From assembly GCF_900169265.1 (NCBI RefSeq), contig NZ_FXYX01000001.1, forward strand, positions 124,001 to 188,000: DNA of 64,000 nucleotides. Reading direction: 5' to 3'. Position numbers and translations under genes: made by a program. This document shows, one piece after another, positions 34,035 to 58,056 of the stretch. Each line of letters begins with the position of its first letter. The first letter of the stretch is position 1. The notes beneath the pieces were generated by a model. The model made no database searches, was not told the DNA's origin, and was given only the letters and a program-made list of their open reading frames with translations. The stretch comes from Brevibacterium iodinum ATCC 49514. Its GTDB lineage: Bacteria > Actinomycetota > Actinomycetes > Actinomycetales > Brevibacteriaceae.

Positions 34035-34224
34035 TGACAGATTTAATAGTTTCGAGTGGCTCAGCCTCAGGGGCAGTCAGAAGCGAACGTTCGATTTGCG
34101 CCGTCGACCAGGGCCCTCACATTTTCATGATCCACGCGCCTCCACAGATTCACGCAACAGCAGATGTAGCATCGTAGCTTGCGCGAGTTCCCCCGCGACA
34201 TGTGAACACTGCTATGGAGCCAAG

Positions 34225-37503: not shown

Positions 37504-37530
37504 GATTGGCTCTTTCTCTAGCGTCCACAA

Positions 37531-38955: not shown

Positions 38956-39056
38956 AGTCGTTCAGGTCTCCTCATCAATGCAACGATCAACGTCGTTACC
39001 GAGATTGTGGCACGTCGTGCCGGCTGGTGAGTGCAACAAGTATCGCGTGTTTTCTC

Positions 39057-40163: not shown

Positions 40164-40878
40164 CGCCGAAGGCCTCCCTGTCCTCGATGAGCGTGAGGAA
40201 GGTCCGGCACACGTAGTAGTCCGAGGCAGTAGTGATCTTAATATTCGTCCGCGGCCCTTCGACTCGGTGCACGGTATATCCGAAACCGTTCATGAGCGTG
40301 CATGTGTCGATAGAGTCGTTCTCCCCTTCAGCGACAGCACGGTCGTATCCTGCAAGGACGTCCTTGAGCGGGAATGTCTGCGGGGCCTGGGCGGTCCACA
40401 ACGGGTCCCGAGGAATGACCTCTTTGATGCCGGCGCCTTCTTCGACGACGACTGTCTCTGTCATCTTCGTACAGGTAACTGCCGAACCGAATTCACGAGC
40501 ACTCTCTATGTTCCGTGAGACGAGGTCTGCATCGATTAAGGGACGGACACCGTCGTGGATGAGCACGATGCTGTCCGGGTCATTGTGTTCAGCGACGACC
40601 TTGAGCGCATTGTGTCGCGATTCCTGGCCTGTCGATCCGCCGTCGACGATCCATTGCACCTTGTCCAGCTCGTAACGTTTGACCAGGCGTTCCAGGTGTT
40701 CCCGATACTGCGGAAGAATGGCCACGGCAATGGCATCGATCTCGGGATGCTGCTGGAAGATGTCGAGCGTGTGCACGATCACCGGTCGGCCGTGGATCTC
40801 CAAGAACTGCTTCGGACGTGAGCTGTGCGCCATTCGAGCGCCGACGCCTCCTGCGAAGACTACTGCGATGTTTGCCAT
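40156..40878 (-). CDS. IspD/TarI-family cytidylyltransferase (CDP-alditol synthesis)
   Basis: A 240-residue enzyme: IAVVFAGGVGARMAHSSRPKQFLEIHGRPVIVHTL (CTP-binding loop), IVLIHDGVRPLID, TQAPQTFPLKDVL-type AQAPQTFPLKDVLAGYDRA, NIKITTASDYYV. These are shared by IspD and the ribitol-5-phosphate enzyme TarI. The position between a TagF-type polymerase and an SDR within a teichoic-acid-like locus argues for CDP-ribitol, CDP-mannitol or a related activated alditol, rather than the isoprenoid pathway. It overlaps both neighbours (19 bases upstream, 8 downstream), indicating tight translational coupling. Confidence 0.8.
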   Translation of the reverse strand: MANIAVVFAGGVGARMAHSSRPKQFLEIHGRPVIVHTLDIFQQHPEIDAIAVAILPQYREHLERLVKRYELDKVQWIVDGGSTGQESRHNALKVVAEHNDPDSIVLIHDGVRPLIDADLVSRNIESAREFGSAVTCTKMTETVVVEEGAGIKEVIPRDPLWTAQAPQTFPLKDVLAGYDRAVAEGENDSIDTCTLMNGFGYTVHRVEGPRTNIKITTASDYYVCRTFLTLIEDREAFGGE

Positions 40879-42638
40879 TGGTTCTCCTCGTCCTCTTCTT
40901 CGGTCTTATAGCTGCCGTCGGAATCGTTGTCCGTCGGGTCGTTGAGCTGGTCTTCTTGCCCGGGCGCGCCGGGATCTTCCTCACCGACACGTTCGGACAT
41001 ACGGTGATCTTCGTCTTCGGAAGGCACCTGTGGTTCCGTGGCAGGCTCGCTGAGGATGAGCGTGTCGATCACTCGGTCGGAGTTGTTCGTGTCCACGTAG
41101 TCGAAGTTCTCTTTGACGAACTCCTTCGTCGCTTCGTTGCTCAACTGGGGACGGCGGAGCAGTTCGACGAGTTCGTCGAAGGTCGTAGCGATGCTTCCCG
41201 GGGCGGCTTCCCGGTAGTCTTTGTGCATTCCTCGCGTCGCAGAATAGGTATCGAGATCGTAGGCGAAGAAGATCATCGGGCGCTCGAGCAGCGAATACTC
41301 GTAGATGACCGACGAGTAGTCAGTGATGAGCACGTCCGAGATGAGCATCAGATCGTTGGTGTCCGCGCAAGACGCGACGTCGATGAGTCGGTCGCTGAAT
41401 TCCTGTGGGATCGGAGCCGGATCAGGCACGAAATGATGCTGTCGGAACAGCACGACGGAATCGTCGCCGCACGACTCGTACAGCTCCCGGAAATCGATCT
41501 GGTCGTAGTCGTAGTGGGCGTCTCCGGAGCCGCGACCGCGGAAAGTAGGAGCAAAGAGGATCTTCCTCTTGCCTTTCGCCGTCGGGAACTGCTTTTCGAA
41601 GTCGACACGGACCTCTTCTGCACGTCCTTCTCTAAGGAAACCGTCGATACGAGGCAGACCGGTCGCGAGGACTGCTTCTCTCTCGATGCCGAAAGCTTCG
41701 CTGTAGACATCCCGCAAGTGCTGGGAACCGCAGATGGCATACGAATAGAGGCGATGGGCGTTTCGCAGATTCGGTGAACCGTACTGCCCGAAGCGGCTGT
41801 AGCCCACTGACTTGAATCCGCTTCCTGCGTGCCACAGCTGGATGATCTTCTGTTCATCTCGGTTGCCCAGGTCCTTGAGGATGGCGAAGTAGTCATCGAT
41901 GAGGATGGTGTTCGCTTTGCCCATCTCCCACGCCAGCGCGAACGCACTCTGGCGGCTGCTGGTGCGGCCGGTACGGAACGAATAGCCGAAGTTGAATTGC
42001 GAATCGAGACCGCGTTCGAGCATGCGGTCATGTACGGCTTTGAGGTTGCCCTGCATATTCGGACGGGCCTCGGAGGCGAACAAGATGTTGCTTCCATCAG
42101 ACGGCCGTTTGTAAGCAGAGATGGAGAATACGGTGCGCAGAGCCTTCCGCTTGGTCTTCGTCCACTTCTTGCGTGCCTTCGACTTCAGGCGTGCCACTTT
42201 GGACGAGGGCTTGCCCCCGGAACGTCCGAAGGAATACGTGCGCATGAGGAAATATGGAGCCGCCTCGTCGTCGGAGATGCCGAACGTCACAGTGTATGCG
42301 GAGAAGTTCTTGTTGTAGACGAATGCTCGTGAAGCGTCCCCGAGCTCTTCAGATCTCGCCAAGGGGTAGGCGGCAGGAAGGTTCTCTTCCCCGCGTCGAG
42401 CCACGAGGTAGTACGTCCCATTGGGAACCTGAGCACGACGATTGAACTGGGTCACGTTGATCGTGAGCTCGTAACGCCCCTCCCCCAGAGGTTCTGCACG
42501 AACCGGGAGTTCGACCTCATAAGGTCGCGAGTTCGGGGTCAGGAAAAACGAGTCAGGGGCATCGCCGGAAACCCTGACGACAAATGTCAGAATCACACGT
42601 TCCCACGAGATTCTTTCAATTGTCAGCTCATCTACCAC
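40860..42638 (-). CDS. CDP-glycerol/CDP-alditol phosphotransferase (TagF/TarL-like) with acidic tail
   Basis: A 592-residue wall-polymer polymerase-type enzyme. Residues ~1-110 form a beta-rich Ig-like domain, and the catalytic domain follows with KIIQLWHAGSGFKSVGYSRFGQYGSPN, RKILFAPTFRGRG, and MLISDVLITDYSSVIYEYSLLERPMIFFAYD, the CDP-Glyphos_transf signature. It would add glycerol- or alditol-phosphate units from the CDP donor to a membrane-linked chain. The last ~60 residues are strongly acidic (SEDEDHRMSERVGEEDPGAP ... EEEDEENQWQ) and run over the cytidylyltransferase start. It heads the SDR/TarI operon. Confidence 0.85.
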   Translation of the reverse strand: MVDELTIERISWERVILTFVVRVSGDAPDSFFLTPNSRPYEVELPVRAEPLGEGRYELTINVTQFNRRAQVPNGTYYLVARRGEENLPAAYPLARSEELGDASRAFVYNKNFSAYTVTFGISDDEAAPYFLMRTYSFGRSGGKPSSKVARLKSKARKKWTKTKRKALRTVFSISAYKRPSDGSNILFASEARPNMQGNLKAVHDRMLERGLDSQFNFGYSFRTGRTSSRQSAFALAWEMGKANTILIDDYFAILKDLGNRDEQKIIQLWHAGSGFKSVGYSRFGQYGSPNLRNAHRLYSYAICGSQHLRDVYSEAFGIEREAVLATGLPRIDGFLREGRAEEVRVDFEKQFPTAKGKRKILFAPTFRGRGSGDAHYDYDQIDFRELYESCGDDSVVLFRQHHFVPDPAPIPQEFSDRLIDVASCADTNDLMLISDVLITDYSSVIYEYSLLERPMIFFAYDLDTYSATRGMHKDYREAAPGSIATTFDELVELLRRPQLSNEATKEFVKENFDYVDTNNSDRVIDTLILSEPATEPQVPSEDEDHRMSERVGEEDPGAPGQEDQLNDPTDNDSDGSYKTEEEDEENQWQTSQ

Positions 42639-42884: not shown

Positions 42885-44165
42885 GTGGCTAACCCGGTCC
42901 GATGGGTCGCACGTACCGCGTTGCGTTCTAGCGCGTGGAAACGCACCAGCAAATGGATCAGGGGCGCTGAGAAGTGGAACCGCCTCGAAGACGAATATGA
43001 CGGCAGCTATGTCAAAGCCGATGTCGTCGTCTACTTCGGTGACCGCAGCTCGAAGTTCTACCAACTCGAACAGTGGATCCCGGTCCTCGAGGAGCTCCAT
43101 AAGGAGCACAGGGTCGTCATCGTCGTGCGAAAAGGTTCAGCCTTGACCAGCGTGCTGGAAACCACTCACCTCCCCGTGGTGTTCAAACGAAGGTTCGATC
43201 CCCTGCAGACCTTCTACCACGCCAATGACTTCAAGCTCGCTCTTTACGTCAACAACGGAATGACGAATTTCCAGTCGCTCAGCTTTGCTCCGATGGTCCA
43301 TGTCCACGTCAATCATGGTGAGTCCGACAAGCTGAGCATGGTGTCAAATCAGGCCAAGGCCTATGACAAGGTCTTCATTGCCGGCGAGGCCGCTGTTGAA
43401 CGACACCGCAGGGCTCTCATCGACTTTGATGAATCCCAGCTAGTCCGAGTCGGCCGGCCCCAATTGGATATCGAAAGGCCGCTCGAGCTCGAACCTTCGT
43501 CGGCCAGGACGATCATGTATGCGCCCACGTGGGAGGGCGAGAATGATGCGAACAACTACACCTCGGTCGATCGCTTTGGTCCGCAGATCGTCGAAGCCGC
43601 CCTCCGGATTCCCGGTGCGCGTCTGATCTACAAACCCCATCCGCGCGTCGAGACGTCCAAAGACCCGTACATGGTCGAAGCGAATGCGCGGATCCTCAAT
43701 CTCATCGAGGCTGCCAACGCGTCCATCGACGACGAGACTCTGCAACACCAGGTGCTCATGCAGGGAGACATCCTCGGCATGTTCGACACGGTCGACCTGC
43801 TCATCACCGATATCTCCAGCGTCGGACTCGACTTCCTCTATCTCCACCCGGATAAGCCGCTCGTTCTCACCGACCGTCGCGGTGACACCGAATCACTCAA
43901 TGCCGAGGCGCCGATCAGCCGCGCCGCGCCCCTCATCAACGATGAGTCGATCGGAAGTGTCGAATCGCTGCTCAAGGAGATGCTCGTGCGCGATTCTTCA
44001 GCAGAGATCAGGCATGAACTCCGCCGCCACTATTTCGGCGACGGCGAACCAGGATCATCGACCGTTCTGTTCACCGAGGCGGTGTCCAGGCTGATCGCCG
44101 ATCGTACGGCTGCGCTGCAGAGCTACCACACCGAGAGCGTCAACGCCGAGGCCGACGACGAATAG
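42885..44165 (+). CDS. CDP-glycerol glycerophosphotransferase family protein
   Basis: A 426-residue TagB/TagF-type enzyme: VVVYFGDRSSKFYQLEQWIPVLEE, LALYVNNGMTNFQSL, VHVNHGESDKLSMVSNQAKAYDKVFIAGEAA, MYAPTWEGENDAN, RLIYKPHPRVETS, LLITDISSVGLDFLY. The NHGESDK histidine and the DISS segment are the catalytic and CDP-binding blocks. The GTG start follows AAGGAG at good spacing. It is divergent from the TagF-like gene and convergent with the GT4 gene. It closely resembles the enzyme at 53527, so the two may be primer and polymerase or act on different acceptors. Confidence 0.85.
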   Translation: MANPVRWVARTALRSSAWKRTSKWIRGAEKWNRLEDEYDGSYVKADVVVYFGDRSSKFYQLEQWIPVLEELHKEHRVVIVVRKGSALTSVLETTHLPVVFKRRFDPLQTFYHANDFKLALYVNNGMTNFQSLSFAPMVHVHVNHGESDKLSMVSNQAKAYDKVFIAGEAAVERHRRALIDFDESQLVRVGRPQLDIERPLELEPSSARTIMYAPTWEGENDANNYTSVDRFGPQIVEAALRIPGARLIYKPHPRVETSKDPYMVEANARILNLIEAANASIDDETLQHQVLMQGDILGMFDTVDLLITDISSVGLDFLYLHPDKPLVLTDRRGDTESLNAEAPISRAAPLINDESIGSVESLLKEMLVRDSSAEIRHELRRHYFGDGEPGSSTVLFTEAVSRLIADRTAALQSYHTESVNAEADDE

Positions 44166-44241: not shown

Positions 44242-46125
44242 TTACTTCCGAGGTCTCACCGAGAGGTTCCCGTGCTTCGTCGCATACCATTCGCTGGCTG
44301 TCGCAGTCGTGACGCGGAATCGCTTCGGAGTGCTGATTCTCCGCTTCGATGACCACAGATCATGGGGTCGGCGAAGAAAGACGTCGAATGTCTCACCAGC
44401 GGACTCGGAAAAGCTCTCATCGTCCACGTCGAACGCAAGCACCGTTCGGTGCCCGAACCGGCGGAATGAGATCTCGGACTGGTGGCAGAGGAAGAACGTA
44501 CTGAGCTCTCTGCCTGCGACGACCAACTGAAGTGTCTCGGCAACCGATTTGCGGATCCCGCCGATCTCGACCTCGACTCTGCATCCTCCCGTTATCGGTG
44601 TGCAGGTGAGCTTCCTGGCCCTGACCGACGGAACCTCATATTCGCTGCCGACCGCTGGGAGATCAGCGAGCCTCATTTCGGCTAACGCTTTCCGCCAACG
44701 AAGGTATCCGGCTTCGGGGAGGTAGCGTTCGACGGAGCTCACCGCTGCTCGACGCATGGACTCGACTTCGCTGGGCTCCAGGGAGAGGAATTCCTCTATC
44801 TGATCGGCCAGTGCGTCGATGTCGCTCCACGGCGTAATGAAGCCGTTGTCGCCGTGATCGATGAGATCCTGCGGCCCGTAGGTGATGTCATAGACGATGG
44901 GAACACAGCCGGCGCCCATCGCCTCCAGCAGCGACAGCGGCAGACCCTCGCTTGTGCTGGTGAGCGTGGAGAACGACGCCGACGTCAATCGTTCATGCAC
45001 ATCATTGACGTAGCCAGGCAGAAAGACGCGATCGGCGACGTCGAGTTCATCGATGAGGGTTTCAAGCTTCGGCCTCGCGGGTCCCTCTCCGAGCACGGTC
45101 AGGGAGACTGCTATACCGCGGTCGCGCAGCTTCGCGACCGCGCGAATCGGGTGATCGATGCGTTTGAGGTCGATGAGGTTCGCGACCATTACGGCATTCC
45201 CCATGTCTCGCCGCATCGGCGGATCAGAGACGACTGATCCTTGCGGCAGCTCCCCAGTCAGCAGTCTGATGTTCTCGCCAGAGAAGCCCATGGCGCGAAT
45301 AGCTTCGGCCTGCTGCTGTGTCTGCACTCCGACGATGTCGAATCGGTCGAAGTTGCGCATCGTATCTGTACGGGCCCTCAGGGGCTGCCCGTGATTACCG
45401 TTCCATGGGTGGCTGAGATGGCTTCCGTGGAGGAAGAGGATGAGTGCGAAGTCGCGGTCCGAGATTTCGTGGATGAATTCGCTGACCTTCTTGTCATCGA
45501 CGATGACGACTGCCGGCGACGTCGTCACGGTCGCTGTGATCCACGCATTGTAGAAATCGCGCGGCCGGCGCCACTCGACCATCGGCTCCCCCGACGGAGA
45601 ATGCAGGATGAATCGTCGGCCCAGTTTCGGATCCTCGATGTCAGCGAGCAGCAGACTTCCGTCGCCTCGCAAATAGTTGCGCCGGATGACTCGACCGGTA
45701 CGCGAGTTGCGGAACACGTCGTAGAAGGGGGTGATGTTCTCGAGCTCGCCGTCCTCGTCGGGGATCGGCATCCTCGGGGGTTCTCCCTCAAGGCGGGCCA
45801 GCTCGGCTTCGCTTCGTCCGCGAAGATCCTGCCAGATGTTGACGAGCTCGACATCGTCTCGCATCTTCCCCTGTGCGATCAGCCGGTCCCTGATCTCATC
45901 GGTGTCCATGCGCGGACTGAACGCGAGAATGGTCTGCGACAACGGGCTTCCATAGTTCTGGAAGCTCCGAATCCGACGCAGCGCAGCCGTCGTCATGCCG
46001 CCCATGGATTCCGGGATGCCCCACAGTACGTTGTATACGTGGACTGCGTCGGTCCCGAATGCGGGACCGACTGGTTCAACGTCTCTGCCACTGCCGTCTG
46101 GGGTCGTTTGGGCTCGCAACCTCAT
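44242..46125 (-). CDS. GT4 glycosyltransferase, poly(glycerol-phosphate) glucosyltransferase-like
   Basis: A 627-residue retaining glycosyltransferase. The N-terminus VYNVLWGIPESMGGMTTAAL and the insert with NIWQDLRG ... VEWRRPRDFYNAWITATVT fit TagE/TarM-type enzymes that sit on polyol-phosphate polymers. The GT4 core has MVANLIDLKRIDHPIRAVAKL, LGEGPARPKLETLI and the EGLPLSLLEAMGAGC (E-x7-E) motif. The C-terminal ~150 residues form an accessory beta domain that ends YATKHGNLSVRPRK, shared with the paralogue at 56041. GGAAAGG precedes the ATG. It follows the pyruvyl-transferase fusion by 43 bases. Confidence 0.82.
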   Translation of the reverse strand: MRLRAQTTPDGSGRDVEPVGPAFGTDAVHVYNVLWGIPESMGGMTTAALRRIRSFQNYGSPLSQTILAFSPRMDTDEIRDRLIAQGKMRDDVELVNIWQDLRGRSEAELARLEGEPPRMPIPDEDGELENITPFYDVFRNSRTGRVIRRNYLRGDGSLLLADIEDPKLGRRFILHSPSGEPMVEWRRPRDFYNAWITATVTTSPAVVIVDDKKVSEFIHEISDRDFALILFLHGSHLSHPWNGNHGQPLRARTDTMRNFDRFDIVGVQTQQQAEAIRAMGFSGENIRLLTGELPQGSVVSDPPMRRDMGNAVMVANLIDLKRIDHPIRAVAKLRDRGIAVSLTVLGEGPARPKLETLIDELDVADRVFLPGYVNDVHERLTSASFSTLTSTSEGLPLSLLEAMGAGCVPIVYDITYGPQDLIDHGDNGFITPWSDIDALADQIEEFLSLEPSEVESMRRAAVSSVERYLPEAGYLRWRKALAEMRLADLPAVGSEYEVPSVRARKLTCTPITGGCRVEVEIGGIRKSVAETLQLVVAGRELSTFFLCHQSEISFRRFGHRTVLAFDVDDESFSESAGETFDVFLRRPHDLWSSKRRISTPKRFRVTTATASEWYATKHGNLSVRPRK

Positions 46126-46168: not shown

Positions 46169-48817
46169 TCAGCGCGTCAGCGCCATATGGCCGAAGTGGC
46201 GAGCCTGGCGGCGCCAATTGACGATCTTGGGAGCGTCCGCTGCTTCCCACTGGGCATGGATGTTCCAGTCGTCGCCGAGGTCGGCATACCGGCCTTTCAC
46301 GATCATCTGCATCGCGTCGATATAGCTGAGACCGTTATGCTGCACGAGACCGAGGACTCGTTCGACGACTCCTTCGCTGCGCAGCTCGGTCAGATTGAGC
46401 ACGGCGATCTGCGGGTCGAACGGCACGAAATCTTCGCTCATCCCCGCGTGGCTGGCGAAGACGAAGTCGAGGGCACCCGTGTGATCGTCACCGAATGTGC
46501 TCGCGATCCGTCGCATCAGTGTGAGACCGCTGGATCGGCTCTTTCTGACATCATGTTTCGCAGCCAGCAGCGTGTCCTTGAAGTCGACGGTCGAGAGCTC
46601 GGTGATGTCCGCGGACACCTCGGCGGCTGCGGGGACGACGATGAGTCGCTCGTGGTCTGCGAACAGCGCAGGCAGAACTGCCGCCAGCACATCAGGCGTG
46701 TTCTTCTCCTCGCCCAATGCCACAGACGGGAGGATGTCGATGCTTCCCTGGCTGAGCTCGCTGCGGATCTCGTCGACTTCGGCTGAGGTCAACGCACCGT
46801 TCGGCAGCCACACGCGGTAGGCGGCTCCCGCGTGGGTCTCGATAGTGCGGAGAGCCTGCCCGACCAACGGTGCTTCGCCCTGCTCAACAGTCATGACGAT
46901 GTCAGTGACCTGCGCTTCGGGGACGGGTCGTTCGATACCGCTCAGCGCCGAGGCAATTGACCCTCTGTCTGCAACGGGCAGTGACGATTTGGCCAGATAT
47001 TCGTCTGCGAACGCCATCTCGTCTGCTGTGATCTCGACCCACTTTGCGTAGATCTCGTCTTCGGATGCGCCGTTTGCGATGAGGGGCAGCAGCACAGCGA
47101 GTTTGTCGAGGATTCCATTGCGGATGGCATCGAACTCGGCAGCATCGATGCCGATGAGTCCGCCGAACCGGGAATCGGACTTGTTCTTGGGTTCGAAGTC
47201 GACGTCGGCCCCGACCGATCGTGCCGGCAGATTCGCGTGCAGGCGGGAAGTGAGGACGTGCTTGTACTTGTAGGCGTAGTCAGCGACCCAGTTGCGTGCG
47301 AGTTCGAGGTTCTCCGGGAACGACTTGTCGCGGATCGCGGTAACCGTCTGCTTCTTCTTCGGTCCCTTGTTGTCCTTCGGCCAGTCGACGCGCAGCGTTC
47401 CCGAGCGACGGTCAGGTGAGGCTGCGGGGAAGAGAGTGTCGACGGTCGTCGTCAGGCAGCCGGAGAAGAAGGCGGGAACGCCTACTGCACGCAGAACAGC
47501 GACAGACTGCCAGTCACGGCACCCGACCGGACCGTACTTCTTCAGATAGGCGATTGCGTCCGGCGTGAGCATCTCGGGGTACCGCACGAAGACCGACAGC
47601 AGAATCGGGCGCAGATTCGGGTGGAACGGAATATTGAACGATTTCCCGAAGATGTCATGCATGTACCAGCCGAAGGCGATGTACCAGGTGTCCTCTGGGA
47701 TGTCCTGATAGACGTTGCCGTCACGATAGACCTCGACCAGGTTGAGTTCAGCCTCAGGCCCCGCGTATTTCCGTTCTTCCTTGACCGACTGACGGAGCTT
47801 TGCGAAGAGGTCGGTCAGACCGGTGTCTCCTGTGAAGCTGAGGTTCTCATAGCGGAGCAGGTGTCCGATCGACGCGATCGTCTGGATGTAGTCGCCGATG
47901 TTCCGCGAGCGGATCCCCGGCTGGTCATAGCTGAGGACACCGAAGTTGCGCTTTCCGGCGGTGGTTGGAAGTGGCTCGAGGTGCTTTCCTCCCGGCAGCC
48001 AGTCAGGCATGCGGTTGAGTTCGTAACGCACGGCCGAATCGGCGTCGTCCTCCATCTGGTCGAGACGAGCTTCGACCAGAGTCCGAACGTGATCGAAAGC
48101 GTCGATGCAGAAGGCCGATTCGGCCGTGCGCAGCACTGCCTTCGCGCTCCACCGGTCGGTCTCGCCCGCTTCATCCGCGCTCTCCAAGAGCGGCAGTGCC
48201 TCGTGTCCGAGCGTGTCGATCGCGGTCGGGTAGTACTCCTCGGCGGCGGCGACGATGATCTCCCGGTCTTCGATCTCCTCGAACTGTGCCCATGCGACCT
48301 CGGGGTCGGATGACCGCTGGTAGGCCAAGCCTAAGAGAACTCTTCCGGCTTCCTCGGTGGAGGGATTGCTGCGGAGGTTGAGCCCGATCGACACGGTGTC
48401 GGCCAGGTGTCCGGCGGCGACGAGAGACCGTCCGGCCTTCACGACAGCGGAACCGAACGACGATCCCTGGGTCAGGGCTTCGGATAGTGCCGCGTGGGCC
48501 TTGAGGCGTGCCAGCTGCCGTGCCTTGGCGTCGACCTCGCGTGTGGATGGGGCGACAGTCCATCCATCGGTGTTCTCTGCTGTCGCACCGTGCAGTCCCG
48601 TTGCCAGTTTCCGGTAGGCACGAGCGGTTTCGGTCGCGATCTTCTTCGGCTTGCCGGACGATTTTCCAGCACCGGTCGCACGCTCACGCACGTACTTGGT
48701 CCCGGAGGCTCGTTCGACCACAGGCAGAGCACGCCGTGCGATCCCGTGGACAACGGGTTTCACCAGCTCTCGTCCCTTGCTGAGGTAGCGGTCCGCGGCG
48801 TTTCGTCCAGTGGTCAC
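46169..48817 (-). CDS. pyruvyl transferase fused to degenerate GT8-like domain
   Basis: An 882-residue three-part protein. Residues ~1-280 are helical and repeat-like (LRSNPSTEEAGRVLLGLAYQRSSDPEVAWAQFEE). Residues ~285-600 are a polysaccharide pyruvyl transferase domain: GVLSYDQPGIRSRNIGDYIQT, PVGCRDWQSVAVLRAVGVPAFFSGCLTTTVDTLF, HVLTSRLHANLPARSVG. Residues ~640-880 resemble GT8: DIVMTVEQGEAPLVGQALRTIETHAG at the start and LSYIDAMQMIVKGRYADLGDDWNIHAQWE at the end. The YLDxD metal site expected between them is replaced by LIVVPAAAEVSADITEL, so catalysis by that domain is doubtful. The GTG start follows AAAGGACG. Confidence 0.8.
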   Translation of the reverse strand: MTTGRNAADRYLSKGRELVKPVVHGIARRALPVVERASGTKYVRERATGAGKSSGKPKKIATETARAYRKLATGLHGATAENTDGWTVAPSTREVDAKARQLARLKAHAALSEALTQGSSFGSAVVKAGRSLVAAGHLADTVSIGLNLRSNPSTEEAGRVLLGLAYQRSSDPEVAWAQFEEIEDREIIVAAAEEYYPTAIDTLGHEALPLLESADEAGETDRWSAKAVLRTAESAFCIDAFDHVRTLVEARLDQMEDDADSAVRYELNRMPDWLPGGKHLEPLPTTAGKRNFGVLSYDQPGIRSRNIGDYIQTIASIGHLLRYENLSFTGDTGLTDLFAKLRQSVKEERKYAGPEAELNLVEVYRDGNVYQDIPEDTWYIAFGWYMHDIFGKSFNIPFHPNLRPILLSVFVRYPEMLTPDAIAYLKKYGPVGCRDWQSVAVLRAVGVPAFFSGCLTTTVDTLFPAASPDRRSGTLRVDWPKDNKGPKKKQTVTAIRDKSFPENLELARNWVADYAYKYKHVLTSRLHANLPARSVGADVDFEPKNKSDSRFGGLIGIDAAEFDAIRNGILDKLAVLLPLIANGASEDEIYAKWVEITADEMAFADEYLAKSSLPVADRGSIASALSGIERPVPEAQVTDIVMTVEQGEAPLVGQALRTIETHAGAAYRVWLPNGALTSAEVDEIRSELSQGSIDILPSVALGEEKNTPDVLAAVLPALFADHERLIVVPAAAEVSADITELSTVDFKDTLLAAKHDVRKSRSSGLTLMRRIASTFGDDHTGALDFVFASHAGMSEDFVPFDPQIAVLNLTELRSEGVVERVLGLVQHNGLSYIDAMQMIVKGRYADLGDDWNIHAQWEAADAPKIVNWRRQARHFGHMALTR

Positions 48818-48947: not shown

Positions 48948-51071
48948 TCAGTCGAAGGTGTCCAAACCTGTCCGGCTGAGTCTCGCACCGAGCTGGGGTG
49001 CGAGAGTCTGCGCATAGGTCGCAGTGATGTGTGCAGTGTCGAAGTAGGTGATGACGCCGCCGATGACAGGCTCACAGCGTCCGTCGGGGCAGAACCAGTC
49101 CTCGGGATAGATGACAGAGAGCCGTTTCGAATCGATCGATTTCGCCGAGGCTGCCAAAGGATCCATCCAGTGCCATTCCTCCGGAGTTCCGGAACAGGCA
49201 GCGAGATCGTCTTCATGTTTGGCTACACAGTCCGGCACATTGATGTCCTGCCCACCCGGGTACGGGGTGTCCCGGATGACGACGACATCGAGTTCCGCAT
49301 CGATCCAGCGTTGCAGGATCTCCTTGTGCCCTTCGGGCGCCTTCGCTTCGGTTTTGTCCCAGTCCATCCCGTCCAGCGGCGTCGACTGGCGCTCCGAGGT
49401 GATCACTGCGTCGAAGCCGCCTTGGGTCGTCCGCTCTGTGACCCAGTCGGCGTAGTCCTGACATCCCTTGGTCTCGTCGGGAGTCGAGAGATCCTGCGGC
49501 AGTGTCGAAATGCTGCAGTTCGAAGCGAGGAACGTGGTGATGGTCAGGTCTTTCTCCTCGGCCAAACGTTCGAGCGCCGGCAGCCAGTGACCGGCATGCG
49601 AGTTGCCGACCAAGGCGACGTGCTTCGAGCCGTCTCCGTAGGTGCACTCGGGTTTGCTTGCGTAGGGGGCGCTGGCCCAGCAGCCGTCCGCGTAGGCTTT
49701 GGACTTGTCCTTCTTCGCCGCGGCCGGTTCCATCTGGAGAGATTTCATTCCCTCGCAATTCGGATTGTCCTTCGCACCGGGCAGGAGGATCCTGCCGCCG
49801 AGGCAGGAGTCTGGGTCATCCAGCTGGGCTTGGAGTTTGTCCTCATTCTGCTCGACGAGGTTGTTCGCGATGACCATCTGGCTGAGACCGAGGGCGACGA
49901 CGAGCGCCATAGCCACAGCGGCGAAGCCGAAGGTCTTCTTTGAACTGCTGAAGAACGCTGATTTGCGGAATCGGTTCTCCACCCAGGTCGTCGACGCCCA
50001 GGCGGCGACTATCGAGACCAGAATGATGGCGATGTTGTCGATTACGCCGAGGCTCTCTGAACGGCCCAGCTTGACCGAGGCGTAGGGCACAATGACGATG
50101 AGCGGCCAGTGCCAGAGGTAGACGGAGTACGAGATATCGCCGAGGAAGCGAACCGGTCGCAGCGAAAGCAGCGGAAGTACAGACGTGCGTCCACGGGAGT
50201 CGGCGAGGATGACAAGCGCAGTCGACAGCACCGGTACGAGCGCAATGTATCCGGGGAAGGGCATGTCCGCGCGAATGAGGAATGTGGCGGCCAAGATGCC
50301 TGCGAGACCGATCCATCCGAGCAACGAACTGAACGGCAGTCGTTCCGGTCGAATATAGAGCACGAAGATGGCGACAAGGCCTCCGGCTGCCAGCTCCCAC
50401 ATCCTCGTCGGGGTGATGAAGTAGGCCATTGCGGGTTCCGCGGCCGTGTACCAGATGGAGAAGACGAACGAGGCGAGGAAGATTCCGAGGACAGTGAACC
50501 CGACGATTCGCTTCGATCGACCGAGCTTTGCTCCGATGAGGAACGCCAGGCCGATGATCATGGGCCAGACGAAGTAGAACTGCTCTTCGACCGACAACGA
50601 CCAGAAATGCTGCACCGGTGAAGAAGCATTGTCTGCGGCGAGGTAGTCGACGCTGGAGACGGCGAAGTCCCAGTTGACGACGTAGAGGCCCGCGGAGAGG
50701 ATCTGCCGACCCGTATCGGCCCACACCGACTGCGGAGCAACGAGGAAGGTGGCGATGCCGACGAGGAAGAGAACGAGCAGGGATGCCGGCAGCAGTCGTC
50801 GGACACGTCGTGCCCAGAACTTTGCTACGTCCGTCCAGCTGCGCGGAGGAGATTTGATGAGGTGGCTGGTGATGAGGAAGCCGGAGATGACGAAGAAAAC
50901 ATCGACGCCGACGAACCCGCCGACGAAGCGGTCGGGCCATAGGTGGTAGAGCAGAACGATTCCCACAGCCAGGGCTCGAAGCCCTTGGATGTCGGATCGA
51001 AAGCCAGAGGGTTTGGGTGTCGGAGTTCTTCGCGGTGAGTTTTCAGCGACAGTGGCTGTCGACTGCATCAA
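48948..51071 (-). CDS. OafA-type acyltransferase with C-terminal SGNH domain
   Basis: A 707-residue membrane O-acyltransferase. The N-terminal half is acyltransferase-3: RSDIQGLRALAVGIVLLYHLWPDRFVGGFVGVDVFFVISGFLIT, WSLSVEEQFYFVWP and SYSVYLWHWPLIV, with about ten helices. The extracytoplasmic C-terminal half is SGNH-type: HVALVGNSHAGHWLPAL (Ser), and the closing YFDTAHITATYA carries the Asp-x-x-His pair. Such proteins acetylate surface sugars or wall polymers outside the membrane, so it probably O-acetylates the polymer made here. It is separated by 130 and 146 bases from its codirectional neighbours. Confidence 0.85.
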   Translation of the reverse strand: MMQSTATVAENSPRRTPTPKPSGFRSDIQGLRALAVGIVLLYHLWPDRFVGGFVGVDVFFVISGFLITSHLIKSPPRSWTDVAKFWARRVRRLLPASLLVLFLVGIATFLVAPQSVWADTGRQILSAGLYVVNWDFAVSSVDYLAADNASSPVQHFWSLSVEEQFYFVWPMIIGLAFLIGAKLGRSKRIVGFTVLGIFLASFVFSIWYTAAEPAMAYFITPTRMWELAAGGLVAIFVLYIRPERLPFSSLLGWIGLAGILAATFLIRADMPFPGYIALVPVLSTALVILADSRGRTSVLPLLSLRPVRFLGDISYSVYLWHWPLIVIVPYASVKLGRSESLGVIDNIAIILVSIVAAWASTTWVENRFRKSAFFSSSKKTFGFAAVAMALVVALGLSQMVIANNLVEQNEDKLQAQLDDPDSCLGGRILLPGAKDNPNCEGMKSLQMEPAAAKKDKSKAYADGCWASAPYASKPECTYGDGSKHVALVGNSHAGHWLPALERLAEEKDLTITTFLASNCSISTLPQDLSTPDETKGCQDYADWVTERTTQGGFDAVITSERQSTPLDGMDWDKTEAKAPEGHKEILQRWIDAELDVVVIRDTPYPGGQDINVPDCVAKHEDDLAACSGTPEEWHWMDPLAASAKSIDSKRLSVIYPEDWFCPDGRCEPVIGGVITYFDTAHITATYAQTLAPQLGARLSRTGLDTFD

Positions 51072-51217: not shown

Positions 51218-52141
51218 CTAAACGACGGGCGGTCGGCCGTGCCGGGACATGCGGAGCACGCCTCTCTTCGACAGCTTCTGCCTCTCTTCGTCTTGGCCCC
51301 ACGGGTCTAGGCGCCAACCTGCACGCCATCCTTCCATCCAGGCTTTGAGCTGATGAGGCTTATTCGCCCACTTGACGAACTGCATCAACGTCCAAGAGCC
51401 CACATAGGCCCAGCTGAAAGGCCACGGCAGGTTGCGCCTGGCCAGCCAGACTCTGTTTCTCGCATTCATGTAGAAGTATTCGTCGTGGCGTCTCGGGTCG
51501 ATTACTGGGTGAGCGACGGCGAGGTCGCCCATGTACCAGACGATGTAGCCGGCGTCCCATACCCTCCACGCGAGTTCGATTCCCTCGTGCGCGTACCAGA
51601 AGGGGGCCGGCCATCCGCCGCACTCGTCGAAAGCCCGCCGCTGCATGCAGACTGCGCCCTCCCACACAGAGAACACGTTCGATGAATGGTCGGCGCTGCC
51701 CTTATTCAGTCTGGGAATCCACCGTTTCGGTGCGTCCGGCCCACCGGGCTCTTCGACGCGTGGTTGGATCAGCCCGATCTGCGGTTTCGTCCGCATCAGC
51801 TGTGCCATCCGCATCAAGGAAGTGTCATCGGGAAGCCAGGCGTCGTCGTCGAGGAAGAACAGGAATTCGCCGTCGACGTGGGGAACACCTGCATTCCGGC
51901 CAGCGGGGATACCGAGGTTCTCCGGCAGCCCGAGCTTCTTGACCTGGTCCGGGATGCCTTCCGGCTCCCAGCCATTGCCGACACAGACGATGTCGAGGTC
52001 GACGCCTTTCTGTGCCAGCAAGGACTCGAATCCGCGATTGAGGTCTTCAAGTCGTTTGCCCTGGCTGAGGACGACGACGCCGAAGGTATAGCGCTTATTG
52101 TCTTCGAAGCGCTGAAAGAGACTCCGCGATGACTCACTCAT
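51218..52141 (-). CDS. GT2 family glycosyltransferase
   Basis: A 307-residue GT2 enzyme: FGVVVLSQGKRLEDLNRGFESL, AGRNAGVPHVDGEFLFFLDDDAWLP (DxD), WEGAVCMQRRAFDECGGWPAPFWYAHEGIELAWRVWDAG (acceptor/catalytic ED region replaced by EGIE). No transmembrane anchor is obvious. The ATG at 52141 overlaps the stop of the CDP-alcohol phosphatidyltransferase gene (ATGA) and has CGAGGAGG upstream, so it is coupled to that gene. It may add the first sugar to, or substitute, the product of the upstream enzyme. Confidence 0.82.
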   Translation of the reverse strand: MSESSRSLFQRFEDNKRYTFGVVVLSQGKRLEDLNRGFESLLAQKGVDLDIVCVGNGWEPEGIPDQVKKLGLPENLGIPAGRNAGVPHVDGEFLFFLDDDAWLPDDTSLMRMAQLMRTKPQIGLIQPRVEEPGGPDAPKRWIPRLNKGSADHSSNVFSVWEGAVCMQRRAFDECGGWPAPFWYAHEGIELAWRVWDAGYIVWYMGDLAVAHPVIDPRRHDEYFYMNARNRVWLARRNLPWPFSWAYVGSWTLMQFVKWANKPHQLKAWMEGWRAGWRLDPWGQDEERQKLSKRGVLRMSRHGRPPVV

Positions 52142-52968
52142 GACAGCCTCCTCGATGCCATGATGGACAGGAAATGTCCGATCACTGACAACAGGCACAG
52201 CGGCGCCATGATGAGCACGAGCCAGCGCTCACCGAACAGCGGCTCCGCGCCGGCTGTCACTGCGATCGCGGTGACGATGCTCGACAGCAGGGCCATGAGC
52301 GACATTTCCACGGAGTGGTAGATCCGGTGGAACGGAACAAAACGCGCGACGCGTTTGAGAGTGGCGACTGCTCCAGGGTTGAGCGCTGTCGCTTCCTTCG
52401 AATCCGGGAGCTTGTCGAGACCGTTGAAGGCGCGGGAGACATGGACCATGTCATTGAGCGCCTTGTTGAGAATCACTAATCCGGCGAGGACGGTTCCGGC
52501 GAGCAGGAAGGGATAGGTTCCAACAGGATCGTCAATGAGGTTGTTCCACTCCCCCACGGCTCGAACACCGAGAGCGACTGCGACGAGGCCTTCTGTGGTG
52601 TAGTGACCGACCTTGTCGAGGAAGACACCTTTGGGGCCGCTGGTGCCGCGCCACCGTGCGACTTCGCCGTCGCAGCAGTCGATGTACATCTGCACTTGGG
52701 AGAAGAACACGGCGAGCACCGCTCCCCAGATCCCAGGAATGAGCAGGCTGCCGGCAATACACCAGCCGGCCACGATCATCAGGCCCGTGACGCCGTTCGC
52801 GCTGATCTTCGTGCGTACGAGCAGCATCGTGAAATAGATCGAGATATGGCGGAGGTAGAGCTGAGCAGTCCAGTGCTCAGCATTCTTCCGGCTGCGGACC
52901 TCCGGAGGCTGCGCTTTGGCCCGAAGCTCCGACAGAGTCGGATGATTCGCCGAAGACTTTTCGGGCAC
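52138..52968 (-). CDS. CDP-alcohol phosphatidyltransferase family protein with D-to-H change in the motif
   Basis: A 276-residue membrane enzyme with about six helices. The family motif D-x2-D-G-x2-A-R-x8-G-x3-D-x3-D reads DCCDGEVARWRGTSGPKGVF then LDKVGH: all residues are kept except the last Asp, which is His. The family transfers a phospho-alcohol from, or onto, a CDP-linked donor. The direct neighbours TagD (CDP-glycerol) and GT2 suggest a glycerol-phosphate transfer to a lipid or glycan. I chose the GTG at 52968 because GAGAGGAGAGGAC lies before it; an ATG at 52989 is in frame. Confidence 0.8.
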   Translation of the reverse strand: MPEKSSANHPTLSELRAKAQPPEVRSRKNAEHWTAQLYLRHISIYFTMLLVRTKISANGVTGLMIVAGWCIAGSLLIPGIWGAVLAVFFSQVQMYIDCCDGEVARWRGTSGPKGVFLDKVGHYTTEGLVAVALGVRAVGEWNNLIDDPVGTYPFLLAGTVLAGLVILNKALNDMVHVSRAFNGLDKLPDSKEATALNPGAVATLKRVARFVPFHRIYHSVEMSLMALLSSIVTAIAVTAGAEPLFGERWLVLIMAPLCLLSVIGHFLSIMASRRLS

Positions 52969-53033
52969 GTCCTCTCCTCTCAGATCCATCGATGGTGTCC
53001 CGTCACGATAGCGCGAAGTCCGTGCCGATTCGC

Positions 53034-53423
53034 TCAGGACTTGCCCAACTCGCTCTTGATCCGGGTCGTCGAGATCTCGGGAGTGCGTTCCAGATAGACG
53101 ACTTCGCACTTGTCTTTGAGGAAGTCGAACTTTCCTGTCCAGTCGTCGCCCATGACGAAAGTGTCGATATGGTACTTATCGATATCGGTCGACTTCTGTT
53201 CCCAGTTTTCTTCAGGGACGACGAGATCCACGTAGCGGATCGCTTCAAGCATATGTTTGCGCTCTTCGTAGGAGAAGTACGACTTCTTACCCTTGCCAGC
53301 GTTGAATTCGTCACTTGACAGCGCAACTACCAGGTAGTCGCCCTGGTCCTTGCATCGTTGGAGCAGTCGAATATGCCCGTAATGGAGCAGGTCGAAAGTT
53401 CCGTAAGTGATGACTCGTTTCAT
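53034..53423 (-). CDS. tagD: glycerol-3-phosphate cytidylyltransferase
   Basis: A 129-residue nucleotidyltransferase making CDP-glycerol from CTP and glycerol-3-phosphate. MKRVITYGTFDLLHYGHIRLL has the HxGH motif, and RTPEISTTRIKSE matches the RTEGISTT signature with two changes. Length fits B. subtilis TagD. The ATG at 53423 follows GGAATCAGCA. It lies downstream of the TagB-like gene and 65 bases before the CDP-alcohol transferase, so donor synthesis and use are encoded together. Confidence 0.92.
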   Translation of the reverse strand: MKRVITYGTFDLLHYGHIRLLQRCKDQGDYLVVALSSDEFNAGKGKKSYFSYEERKHMLEAIRYVDLVVPEENWEQKSTDIDKYHIDTFVMGDDWTGKFDFLKDKCEVVYLERTPEISTTRIKSELGKS

Positions 53424-53526: not shown

Positions 53527-54795
53527 TCACCGGGCGGCTTTCTGCCTACGCTCTCCGCTTCTCAGCTCGATGACGCGTTCGGCTGCCCGGATGAAGCGCG
53601 CGGTCTGTGCCCCTGGCACAGTCTCACCGAGGTAGAGCTGCGCCAGAGCATCGACTGATCCGTCTCGCGAAACCGCCTGATCGATGAGGTCGACGATCTG
53701 GTCTTGCTGCCCAGGCTCCACCGTCGGACATTTGTCCAGCAGCCCGCCCTCGAGCACTTCTGCGTCGGGGTCATGCGGCTGGACCATGACCAACGGCTTT
53801 CCAGACGACAACCAGTCGAAGGCCACCGAGGTCATCTCGACAACGGCGATGTCAGCTTCATCCAGTTGCCACGAGACATCTGGACTGCGGTCCCGGAAAC
53901 CTCTGGGGTCAGCCTCGACGATCTCTTCGACTGCTTCCAATGCGTCTTCGAATTCCGGGTTCATGACTCCGGTTCGAGGATGCGGGCGGAAGATCACTCG
54001 GTACCCGGCTTCGAGCAGAGATTTGACGATAGCTTCTCCGTTGAAGGCAATAGTTCCATAAGCCATCGACGGCGAGTCGCCTTCCCACGTGGACGCGTAG
54101 AACACTGCTTTCCCATCAGGGTGCTCGGCTTTGAAGTCCTCCCATTCCGGAGGTACCGTCCGGGGCCTGTCCAGTTGTGGTCGACCGACGTCGAACATCC
54201 GGTCGTCACCCAGCCCGTAGAGCGTCTGTTTGATGCGGTCTCTGGCGGCCTGTCCCGCGGTGAATACGAAGTCATACCCTTTGAGCTGGTTGGAGATCAT
54301 CGAGATCTTCTCGCTCTCACCGTGGCTGAGGTGGACATGTGCAGGCTCCGGATAGCGGAGCGACTGAAAATTGCTGGTCGCTTGATTGACGTAGAAGACG
54401 GCCCGCAGATTCGACGCCTGCATGAACTCGTCCAAGCCTTTCGTCAGGCGTGAGAACCGAATCGGAAAAGCCGTGACGCCTTCGAGGTACTTAGCGACCG
54501 TTGCATTGCGCACCATGATGCCGAATGGCTTGTCACCGAATCCGAGCTCTTTCAGGCGTGACTCCAGCTGTTCAAAGGGCCACAGCCATTGTTCCAGCTG
54601 GTAGACCGAGCTGAGGTCGCCGGCGAAGTATGCGGCTGCGACGAAGTCGTCGTCTTCGCGAGGATTGAATTCGTCCGGGAGCCGCGACTCACGAACACGC
54701 TCACGCAGTCTCAACGCTGCAAGTTTTGCTACCGATTGAGCAAATGCGGCACCACGGACTGCAGTATTCGGCAGTTCTGCCGGTAGGAAGCTCAT
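53527..54795 (-). CDS. CDP-glycerol glycerophosphotransferase family protein (TagB-like)
   Basis: A 422-residue enzyme similar to the one at 42885: AAYFAGDLSSVYQLEQWLWPFEQ, RAVFYVNQATSNFQSLRYPEPAHVHLSHGESEKISMISNQLKGYDFVFTAG, VFYASTWEGDSPSM, YRVIFRPHPRTG, IAVVEMTSVAFDWLSSGKPLVMV. The SHGESEK histidine and the EMTS segment, in place of DxSS, are the active-site blocks. The ATG at 54795 (MSFLPAELPNTA) gives the family length; longer readings are basic and not conserved. It is divergent from corA and upstream of tagD. Confidence 0.85.
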   Translation of the reverse strand: MSFLPAELPNTAVRGAAFAQSVAKLAALRLRERVRESRLPDEFNPREDDDFVAAAYFAGDLSSVYQLEQWLWPFEQLESRLKELGFGDKPFGIMVRNATVAKYLEGVTAFPIRFSRLTKGLDEFMQASNLRAVFYVNQATSNFQSLRYPEPAHVHLSHGESEKISMISNQLKGYDFVFTAGQAARDRIKQTLYGLGDDRMFDVGRPQLDRPRTVPPEWEDFKAEHPDGKAVFYASTWEGDSPSMAYGTIAFNGEAIVKSLLEAGYRVIFRPHPRTGVMNPEFEDALEAVEEIVEADPRGFRDRSPDVSWQLDEADIAVVEMTSVAFDWLSSGKPLVMVQPHDPDAEVLEGGLLDKCPTVEPGQQDQIVDLIDQAVSRDGSVDALAQLYLGETVPGAQTARFIRAAERVIELRSGERRQKAAR

Positions 54796-54929
54796 GCAAT
54801 CTATTGTGCACGCCCAACTGAGTCCCGCCTGAACTCGCCCTTTGCTCAAGATGAATGGCACAGTCGTCGGCAATCGACTCGCCTCACGGCATCGGCTAGT
54901 TTTGGGTGAGATTCTGCGAAGGGAACACC

Positions 54930-56057
54930 ATGCCATCCGACAGCCGTCACCGTTTCGAACGCCCCAGCCTGCGCAAGCGCGCATCCGCAATCAATACCGG
55001 GCAGGACAAACTGACTGCGGCGCTCTTCAGCCGCCGTATCGTCAACAGCGAACCGCAGGAACTCGTCACTTCCAGCTCATTCAATGAGGCGCTGGCCGCG
55101 CAAATTTCCGAAGGCCTAGGCGTCTCCCAGGGCTCGACAACTCAGGTCATTGTGCCCAGGTCGACGCCCGAGCTCTTGGCCGAGATCGCTTCGGCCTGGG
55201 ACCTCCACCCCGTGCTCGTTGATGATATCTATCACGCGAATCAGCGGGCCAAGGTCGAACGCTACGACGATGTGCTCTTCGTCGTCCTCAAATCAGCGGT
55301 CTACATCGACGCGAAAGAGGAAGTCGAATTCAACGAGTTCCACTTGCTGATGAAGGACGACGTGCTCGTCATCATCTGCCAAGGTGACCGCTTCATCGAC
55401 GGCACTCCTATTCCGACCGATGCCAGTGGAATCGAGGACTACCTCACGAATGAGAAGCGCAGCTTCACGAAGGACCGCGAACTTCTCACGCTCGGACCCG
55501 AGGCTCTCATCTACCGACTGCTCGACACCGCGGTCGATGGGTACTTCCCCGTCCTCGACGGACTCCAAGACGACAAGGACGGGATCGAGCGGCAGGTCTT
55601 CAGCGGGGACACTGCCGCTGCCGAGCGCATCTATCTCCTCAGCCAGGAAGTGATCGATGTCCTCCACAACTCCACCCACCTCAACCGACTGACGCAGGCG
55701 CTCGGTAACGGGGCAGCCAAGTACGCGATTCCCGACGACCTTCGCGCCTACCTCGATGATGTCACCGACCACCTCACGCGCGTCCTCGCCGAGGCGGGAG
55801 AACTGCGAGAGGCCCTGTCGCAGATCCTCAACGTCAACTCCACTCTCGTTGCCCAGAGACAGAATGAGGACATGAAGAAGATCTCCGGCTGGGCGGCGAT
55901 CCTCTTCGCCCCCACCCTCGTCGGAGCCATCTACGGTATGAACTTCGACGATATGCCCGAACTCCATTGGGCCTTCGGCTACCCGATGGCACTGGGGCTC
56001 ATGCTCGGTCTGGGCGTCGTGCTCTACGTCGTCTTCCGGGTCAAGAAGTGGATGTGA
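54930..56057 (+). CDS. corA: CorA-family magnesium/cobalt transporter
   Basis: A 375-residue pentameric channel subunit. The cytoplasmic N-terminal domain is followed by a long stalk helix (LREALSQILNVNSTLVAQRQNEDMKKISGWAAI) and two C-terminal helices, with the YGMNFDDMPEL loop carrying the GMN selectivity motif. It imports Mg2+, which the metal-dependent wall-polymer enzymes need. The ATG at 54930 has GCGAAGGG upstream. Its 3' end overlaps the convergent GT4 gene by 17 bases. Confidence 0.92.
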   Translation: MPSDSRHRFERPSLRKRASAINTGQDKLTAALFSRRIVNSEPQELVTSSSFNEALAAQISEGLGVSQGSTTQVIVPRSTPELLAEIASAWDLHPVLVDDIYHANQRAKVERYDDVLFVVLKSAVYIDAKEEVEFNEFHLLMKDDVLVIICQGDRFIDGTPIPTDASGIEDYLTNEKRSFTKDRELLTLGPEALIYRLLDTAVDGYFPVLDGLQDDKDGIERQVFSGDTAAAERIYLLSQEVIDVLHNSTHLNRLTQALGNGAAKYAIPDDLRAYLDDVTDHLTRVLAEAGELREALSQILNVNSTLVAQRQNEDMKKISGWAAILFAPTLVGAIYGMNFDDMPELHWAFGYPMALGLMLGLGVVLYVVFRVKKWM

Positions 56058-57906: not shown

Positions 57907-57913
57907 TACAGAA

Positions 57914-57919
57914 AGACTA
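57914..57919 (-). promoter_or_regulatory. candidate -10 element for a leaderless GT4 mRNA
   Basis: On the minus strand TAGTCT ends seven bases before the GTG at 57906, and no ribosome-binding site is present. No clear -35 element is seen. Confidence 0.35.
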
Positions 57920-58056
57920 ATGATCGATCCCCCGAAATCCAGAGGACACTCCACCTCAATGCTGTGATCTTGGCGAGAACTGCACCCCCCTCCTCCCCTG
58001 CTCACCCGGCAGGCATAGACTGCAAGTAGCCAAACGTCTTGTCCGCAGGAGGAATC

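Follow-up and report, generated by a model that had tools for sequence, protein, structure and literature searches.

Two groups of enzymes bear on the gene described here. Among ketal pyruvyltransferases, CsaB has been studied by mutation: the part of PMC10435577 drawn on here gives its RxH residues as R306 and H308, and reports that activity is abolished by H308A, H308R, R148K and R148Q. Among glycosyltransferases of family GT8, the plant GAUT family, GAUT7 included, is described in the portion of PMC7533613 used here as conserving the DxD and HxxGxxKPW motifs. In this report, we analyzed a 64,000-nucleotide stretch of Brevibacterium iodinum ATCC 49514 (positions 124,001 to 188,000 of contig NZ_FXYX01000001.1), hereafter the window, and within it a minus-strand gene at 46169-48817 that unites a pyruvyltransferase (PvT) domain with a C-terminal domain of GT8 fold. 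Our main finding, which is well supported, is that this C-terminal domain is a pseudo-GT8 domain. The whole protein is probably a ketal pyruvyltransferase for wall teichoic acid, or for its side-chain or linkage sugar, and we infer that its PvT half is active and that the pseudo-GT8 domain is retained for binding or scaffolding.

The focal open reading frame comprises a helical N-terminus, a PvT domain and the C-terminal GT8-fold domain:

46169..48817, minus strand: the whole focal gene, 882 amino acids from a GTG start, with orthologues at 15/15 named Brevibacterium loci
47963..48817, minus strand: N-terminal third, residues 1-285, modelled as helices with low confidence
46982..47962, minus strand: PvT domain, residues 286-612, limits approximate (PF04230 at E 3e-4 and conserved R365, R434, R525 and H527)
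46172..46909, minus strand: pseudo-GT8 domain, residues 637-882 (predicted fold, profile alignment to DxD-bearing relatives, and a ratio of nonsynonymous to synonymous substitution rates, dN/dS, of 0.08-0.34)

Near relatives of the protein are those of Brevibacterium epidermidis (95% identity) and B. linens ATCC 9172 (94%), and orthologue identity over the 15 named loci is 69-95%. A whole-protein Pfam scan gave a single weak match, to PF04230 over residues 383-532 (E 3e-4); an NCBIfam scan gave zero matches, and phmmer with the single focal protein found 0 matches among PDB sequences.

Pfam does not list GT8 (PF01501) for residues 625-882 at E values up to 10, ACT_5 (E 0.23) being the only entry, and PF01501 matches 4/4 of the DxD-bearing relatives scanned (E 1.5e-18 to 1.4e-33). 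Because Pfam is blind to GT8 in this part of the focal protein, other evidence was needed for the GT8 call. A model of residues 625-882, built from 16 Brevibacterium sequences only, has a mean predicted local distance difference test score (pLDDT) of 61.9; its residues 1-120 reach about 70-95, and much of the remainder is below 50. Its top Foldseek matches were UGGT, WbbM, GlyE, LARGE1 and LgtC (E 2e-6 to 5e-5), and VIA-align gave Z scores of 14.0 for WbbM (200 residues, 3.7 A) and 10.5 for LgtC. The corresponding scores of the full-length model were 18.5 (217 residues, 3.1 A) and 14.3, with matches spanning residues 618-867; the mean pLDDT of this model, 48.9, makes it too weak to judge the N-terminal third, the PvT domain or the domain interface. 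At the level of profiles, alignment of the Brevibacterium domain by hhalign to its counterparts in DxD-bearing relatives returned a probability of 99.25 (E 5.7e-20 over 252 columns); VVPAAAEVSAD fell opposite YVDIDTLPCGD, and PKIVNW opposite PRLIHW. By sequence, a profile drawn from 13 family members, 6 of them with DxD and 7 lacking it, matches WbbM (1.4e-22) and LgtC (3.9e-19). The focal domain has a GT8 fold, and the earlier GT8 call was therefore right despite the silence of Pfam. That call came from a sequence-only reading of the stretch, which proposed a pyruvyl transferase fused to a GT8-like domain devoid of its DxD; motif counts (below), predicted fold and profile alignment bear this out. 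The same reading had set VVPAAAEVSAD against the YLDxD position, as the profile-profile alignment does, and had expected a GT-A-like fold, which agrees with the likeness of both models to GT8 folds.

To place these losses in the family, relatives were gathered from overlapping genome sets, the window's own genome being counted where drawn. Matches were obtained in 19/59 relatives at E 1e-3, in 32/396 genomes at the order level (1e-10), in 8/394 at the class level (1e-30), and in 17/178, 6/119, 24/121 and 6/47 in four family-level searches (1e-60); a phylum-level search at 1e-30 returned 1/296, the own genome alone. The 122 loci correspond to 87 unique proteins, of which 85 were compared after removal of L118 (a fragment) and L073 (no GT8 part in frame); G370, an order-level match with a partial, 382-amino-acid frame, stands outside the 122 loci. 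Both DxD aspartates and the metal histidine are present in 33/85 relatives, hereafter called intact, and 52/85 are without at least one of the aspartates. These 52 lost members are made up of the window's branch (29), L078-L080 (3), a second large group (19) and L072. The window's branch contains 25 Brevibacterium sequences plus L054, L055, L092 and L093 from other genera, four genera in total. Family-wide absence of DxD, a possibility raised by the sequence-only reading, is thus ruled out, since 33/85 retain the motif.

The positions that distinguish the window's branch lie in the focal gene as follows:

46874..46876, minus strand: E648, at the old DxNL position (E in 29/29 of the window's branch, 5/19 of the second lost group and 0/33 intact members, which have L, Y or V)
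46625..46633, minus strand: former DxD, now P729-A730-A731 (both D in 33/33 intact relatives, neither D in 29/29 of the window's branch)
46535..46537, minus strand: R761 (R in 29/29 of the window's branch, 2/19 of the second lost group, 0/33 intact)
46217..46219, minus strand: former metal histidine of HWAG..KPW, now N867 (H in 33/33 intact; N in 27 and S in 2 of the 29 of the window's branch)
46211..46213, minus strand: R869, where HWAG has become NWRR (R in 29/29 of the window's branch, 0/19 of the second lost group, 0/33 intact, with A in 31 and L in 2)

Erosion extends well past the DxD. Eight residues of the intact pattern (D729, D731, H867, N647, N801, G803, D832 and Q833) are replaced in 29/29 of the window's branch, and D645 and K873 are each retained in 5/29 and replaced in 24/29. 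The focal protein reads NWRRQARHF in place of the GT8 motif HxxGxxKPW; its FNAG, NDQ, KPW and nucleotide-loop N are likewise changed, and the HxTVxTMDRLLLP stretch is missing. The sequence-only reading had thus been correct on the DxD, and had left out the metal histidine, FNAG, NDQ and the nucleotide-loop N. Two technical explanations for the missing DxD were discarded: misalignment is ruled out, as structure and profile agree and the metal histidine is lost too, and so is a reading error or frameshift, the 15/15 named Brevibacterium loci all being without DxD.

The second lost group is less eroded, with the second aspartate (D731) kept in 11/19 and H867 in 14/19. These residues, together with the match of the L070 domain to PF01501 (8e-9), would be expected if this group, in which PxD..H is often kept, retained weak glycosyltransferase activity, a reading that does not concern the window's branch; D801 replaces N in 17/19, R833 replaces Q in 16/19 and the sampled subgroups diverge fast, and we consider such activity unlikely. 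The change from N to D at residue 801, the FNAG position, is found in 28/29, 17/19 and 1/3 members of the three lost groups and in L072, though their DxD changes differ; this recurrence may reflect either parallel change or shared ancestry. L086 (genome G1046) has DxD and histidine, yet its N801 has become D and its NDQ reads GDR; it lies 1.1 kb from a PF04464 gene, and its state is possibly an early stage of decay.

Three residues that the 33 intact members do not show, E648, R761 and R869, are invariant in the window's branch. We take the old DxNL loop (E648) and the HWAG motif (R869) to be donor-facing in GT8 enzymes, and the three residues point to, short of proving, a new use of the pocket. 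Could the domain still be a transferase without a DxD metal site, the arginines replacing the metal? GT-A enzymes that dispense with metal and use basic residues exist, and R761 and R869 are present in 29/29 of the window's branch. Set against this are the replacement of N647, N801, G803, D832 and Q833 in all 29 sequences and of D645 and K873 in 24 each, the missing HxTVxTMDRLLLP stretch and faster divergence (below). Metal-free catalysis, one of the options of the sequence-only reading, found no positive evidence beyond the new invariant arginines, and we regard it as very improbable. An acidic pair elsewhere that could supply the metal site was not seen as such; conserved candidates, compared by position along the chain rather than by distance in space, are E648, D801 and E733. 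Among the positions tabulated, E648 (29/29) and D801 (28/29) are the only new conserved acids of the window's branch; E733, two residues past the old second aspartate, is invariant in the 16 Brevibacterium sequences and is E in 24/29 of the branch. A more specific and tentative proposal is that E648, R761, R869 and D801 form a rebuilt site, the GT8 fold having become a reader of anionic teichoic acid that determines the PvT domain's site of action or, less likely, a site of group transfer independent of a DxD metal.

The PvT half tells the opposite story. PF04230 scores 21.2 bits for the protein alone against a gathering score of 25.3, and 26.1 with neighbouring in-frame stretches, and the residues of the phosphoenolpyruvate (PEP) site are in place: R365 is conserved in 85/85 relatives and R434, R525 and H527 each in 84/85.

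47516..47518, minus strand: R434 of GCRD (84/85 relatives; A in L074)
47237..47245, minus strand: R525-L526-H527, read as the RxH pair that binds PEP in ketal pyruvyltransferases (84/85 relatives)

R525 and H527 are equated with R306 and H308 of CsaB by motif match rather than superposition, and R434 and R365 would correspond to R207 and R148 by spacing. The mirror case is L074 (genome G510), in which the PvT domain is truncated and without RLH and the GT8 motifs are intact; the 20-kb stretch around it (L074/L146) also has a gene for a GlfT2-like galactofuranosyltransferase. Losses have therefore occurred both ways, 52 sequences being without the GT8 site and one without the PvT motifs (sequences, not events).

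The N-terminal third is aligned in 13/13 members of one family alignment, and is shortened in L053. Pfam scans at E 0.1 gave no repeat family in 13/13 relatives, with just five one-member matches (E 0.03-0.06), in line with the sequence-only reading, which had left this helical region unassigned.

Since 33/85 members keep the GT8 motifs and 84/85 the PvT motifs, and given the mirror case, a bifunctional GT8-PvT enzyme is the most probable ancestor. The intact state would be ancestral, because the wider GT8 family has the motifs and their regain at many positions is implausible. On an unrooted tree derived from the PvT columns only (73 rows, with L073 included and L118, L074 and 12 near-duplicate Brevibacterium rows removed), the GT8 state switches on three occasions, and well-supported branches force two of these. 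Grouping the two large lost groups (with L073) as one clade was not rejected by the approximately unbiased test (p-AU 0.306), the groups having been named after the tree was seen.

The loss is accompanied by faster divergence of the domain. In hand-chosen groups of close relatives, median GT8/PvT divergence ratios were 0.84, 1.39, 1.37, 1.19, 1.45 and 1.03 for six intact groups, and 3.27, 1.79, 2.81, 2.00, 2.19, 1.91, 2.03 and 3.49 for eight lost groups, without overlap (Mann-Whitney p 0.0007, treating related groups as independent); the control ratio of N-domain to PvT overlaps between intact (1.46-3.19) and lost (1.56-3.47) groups. In 14 Brevibacterium pairs, which share sequences, dN/dS was 0.015-0.08 for the PvT domain; the N-domain gave 0.08-0.15, the dead domain 0.08-0.34, and the short linker 0.12-0.78 in the 12 unsaturated pairs. 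As judged from these comparisons, the pseudo-GT8 domain appears to be under relaxed constraint without being free of it, with purifying selection in Brevibacterium. These data bear on whether the dead domain is simply a slowly decaying relic with no function beyond chain stability. The higher ratio in 8/8 lost groups than in any of the 6 intact ones is what a relic would show, and the C-terminus is shortened in L023, L087 and L088 and the GT8 part is absent from the L073 frame. A relic does not, however, fit well with low dN/dS in 14/14 Brevibacterium pairs, with a domain that reaches its end in 29/29 of the window's branch over four genera, or with three invariant residues unseen in the 33 intact members. 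We therefore hold the relic to be a real but clearly less likely alternative to a domain retained for binding or scaffolding.

Genomic context differs between the sampled intact and lost members. In a sample of 40 genomes hand-picked across the tree, plus G510, with the genomes of L073, L078, L080 and L082, among others, falling outside it, the nearest PF04464 gene is within 20 kb in 19/21 lost versus 2/19 intact genomes, and within 10 kb in 16/21 versus 1/19 (Fisher p 4.7e-7, relatedness ignored). A PF04464 match is absent genome-wide from 15/19 intact genomes; one intact genome, G365, has such a gene at 19.7 kb. Four intact loci were annotated, with 3-7 neighbours each, and in three of them the neighbours have no glycan link by Pfam: a lipoamide dehydrogenase-type protein with an E2 acyltransferase, nucleoside metabolism, and TrkH with an anti-sigma factor. 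The fourth, L128, lies in a glycan cluster that includes an ABC transporter and another PvT. At L131:8351-11281, the intact-motif GT8-PvT gene stands between genes for lipoamide dehydrogenase-type and 2-oxoacid dehydrogenase E2 proteins on the same strand, an odd setting for a glycan enzyme. When 19 intact loci were compared with 22 window proteins, 8 had no homologue besides the focal one and the others had one or two at 25-37% identity; some of them have weak homologues of the window's AT3, short-chain dehydrogenase/reductase (SDR), glycosyltransferase or TagF genes. The notion of intact members as orphans is thus only partly borne out. An intact gene with both activities would fit a self-sufficient enzyme, and we propose that the GT8 half could become replaceable where a polymer cluster provides other transferases.

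Around the focal gene, the 15/15 named Brevibacterium loci share a fixed core, whose order is PF04464-like, CDP-alcohol transferase-like, GT2, AT3-SGNH, the focal gene, group-1 glycosyltransferase and, on the other strand, a further PF04464-like gene:

53527..54990, minus strand: Glyphos_transf (PF04464)-like, fixed core (PF04464 E 4e-7, part of the model; 15/15)
52138..53109, minus strand: CDP-alcohol phosphatidyltransferase-like, fixed core (PF01066 E 5e-6; 15/15)
51218..52198, minus strand: GT2-family glycosyltransferase, fixed core (Pfam; 15/15)
48948..51071, minus strand: AT3-SGNH acyltransferase, next gene upstream (Pfam; adjoins the focal gene in 15/15)
44242..46125, minus strand: group-1 (GT4-type) glycosyltransferase, next gene downstream (PF00534 E 2e-30; adjoins the focal gene at 15/15 loci)
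42885..44165, plus strand: second PF04464-like gene, fixed core, opposite strand (PF04464 E 3e-8, part of the model; 15/15)
40860..42638, minus strand: TarL-like poly(alditol phosphate) polymerase, outside the fixed core (PF04464 E 2.5e-75)

The glycosyltransferase at 44242-46125 is a candidate supplier of the glycosyl step. Its adjacency in 15/15 named loci also suggests a special case of the binding or scaffolding role, in which the dead domain would be a scaffold for this enzyme, or for another enzyme of the cluster, rather than a polymer clamp. Plants offer a parallel, since the GT8-family proteins GAUT5, 6 and 7 anchor GAUT1, with GAUT5 and 7 proposed to be non-catalytic in the portion of PMC7533613 cited above. 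The most divergent Brevibacterium member, G034, is at odds with it: no homologue of the glycosyltransferase 44242-46125 occurs within 20 kb, and beside the gene (L147), on the opposite strand, there is instead a homologue of the group-1 glycosyltransferase 56041-58272. A scaffold of this kind seems to us improbable.

Beyond the core, the window has the TarL-like polymerase, an IspD-like gene, SDR genes and two CsaB-like PvTs. The best NCBIfam model for 40860..42638 is TarL (E 3.5e-95), yet its 320 bits fall short of the cut-off, which is 1000. The TarL-like and IspD pair (68% identity or more) occurs in 8/15 loci, which end at 16-19 kb, so that the pair may lie further off. The block 36148-42638 (two CsaB-like PvTs, SDR, IspD-like and TarL-like genes) recurs in L155 (G1270), and a version with a single PvT in B. 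permense L025; it is a candidate module for pyruvylated mannitol teichoic acid. Pairs of PF01128 and PF01370 are predicted makers of CDP-glucitol or CDP-mannitol according to the part of PMC10918830 drawn on here, whose reference list includes a title on a mannitol teichoic acid with rhamnose and a pyruvic acid acetal in B. permense VKM Ac-2280. The genome of that strain has a 91% orthologue of the focal protein (L025). As for B. iodinum, the part of PMC6801904 used here describes two teichoic acids, one with pyruvylated mannitol and one with 4,6-pyruvylated N-acetylgalactosamine (GalNAc). The focal PvT is disfavoured as the mannitol-acetal enzyme, its core being present in 15/15 loci and the TarL-like and IspD pair in 8/15 (of loci ending at 16-19 kb); on the same grounds, its acceptor is more likely a sugar, for example the GalNAc of the second polymer or a sugar of the linkage region. 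Elsewhere in the window, 29311-30483 encodes a baeRF-type release-factor-like protein (PF18844, E 2e-24), and 33865-36042 on the plus strand, beside the PvT block, a GT2 enzyme with a TarS-type linker domain (PF22181, E 1e-8).

We propose the following history. In the ancestor, the GT8 half would have added a sugar that the PvT half then pyruvylated. In teichoic-acid clusters, other glycosyltransferases may have supplied the sugar, or the acceptor may have become an alditol; GT8 activity would then be dispensable. The dead domain would have been kept as a clamp or docking surface through which the PvT domain is presented with the anionic polymer or with a partner enzyme, with E648 and R869, in old donor-side motifs, filling the pocket or binding a new ligand; the enzyme is assumed to be cytoplasmic. 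The sequence-only reading had suggested a scaffold or polymer-binding role: the loss of several catalytic motifs, together with the faster divergence, favours the non-catalytic part of this suggestion, and the polymer is a putative ligand.

Several observations weigh against a PvT acting on teichoic acid with the aid of a retained pseudo-GT8 domain. The second half of the domain model is of low confidence, and the PvT part is not reliably modelled. A substitute metal site may exist among E733, D801 and E648. In Brevibacterium, divergence of the dead domain somewhat exceeds that of the N-domain as well, and, with the C-terminal end missing from L023, L087 and L088 and no GT8 part in frame in L073, retention of the dead domain may partly be slow decay. 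The PF04464 link provides 2-3 independent contrasts, too few for significance on the tree; moreover, the lost G662 and G1130 have no PF04464 gene nearby, and the intact G1046 has one at 1.1 kb. Finally, the CsaB-like PvTs at 36148-38955, by the CDP-mannitol-type genes, are better placed for the mannitol acetal, and the focal PvT would need another acceptor.

To our knowledge, few of the enzymes that pyruvylate the teichoic acids of actinobacteria have been assigned, and it is seldom that catalytic domains midway to becoming binding domains are available with living intermediates. This family offers a series of members with full GT8 motifs, partly decayed (PxD with histidine), dead but retained, and one with the opposite half broken, which makes both teichoic-acid pyruvylation and the conversion from catalysis to binding testable by ordinary enzymology. 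If the rebuilt-site proposal is true, a family with two-way loss would be a ready series for tracing how a domain passes from catalysis to binding.

Open-literature searches by title and abstract start, which leave most subscription papers outside, found no report of a PvT-GT8 fusion among the papers listed, and each known system resembles the focal protein in part. CsaB, Pvg1p and WbbZ (PF04230) share with it the RxH motif, the conserved arginines and a weak PF04230 match; in the focal protein, a helical N-domain precedes the PvT domain and a GT8-derived C-domain follows it, two parts that we take to be absent from these three enzymes. The GT8 enzymes LgtC (1g9r) and GlyE (5gvv) and the GT8-like part of WbbM (6u4b) resemble the predicted models of the focal domain in fold, but the focal protein has none of their DxD, metal histidine, FNAG, NDQ and KPW. 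The best structural match, WbbM, a 'bifunctional glycosytransferase' by title, likewise places a GT8-like domain in a bifunctional protein; it differs in that both activities are, by title, glycosyl transfer, in the absence of a PvT, and in the DSD and HYAG..KPW of its aligned sequence. The plant proteins GAUT5 and GAUT7, presented in the portion of PMC7533613 cited above as GT8-family anchors of GAUT1 and proposed there to be non-catalytic, are separate subunits, whereas the pseudo-GT8 domain described here is fused to another enzyme and its motifs are gone.

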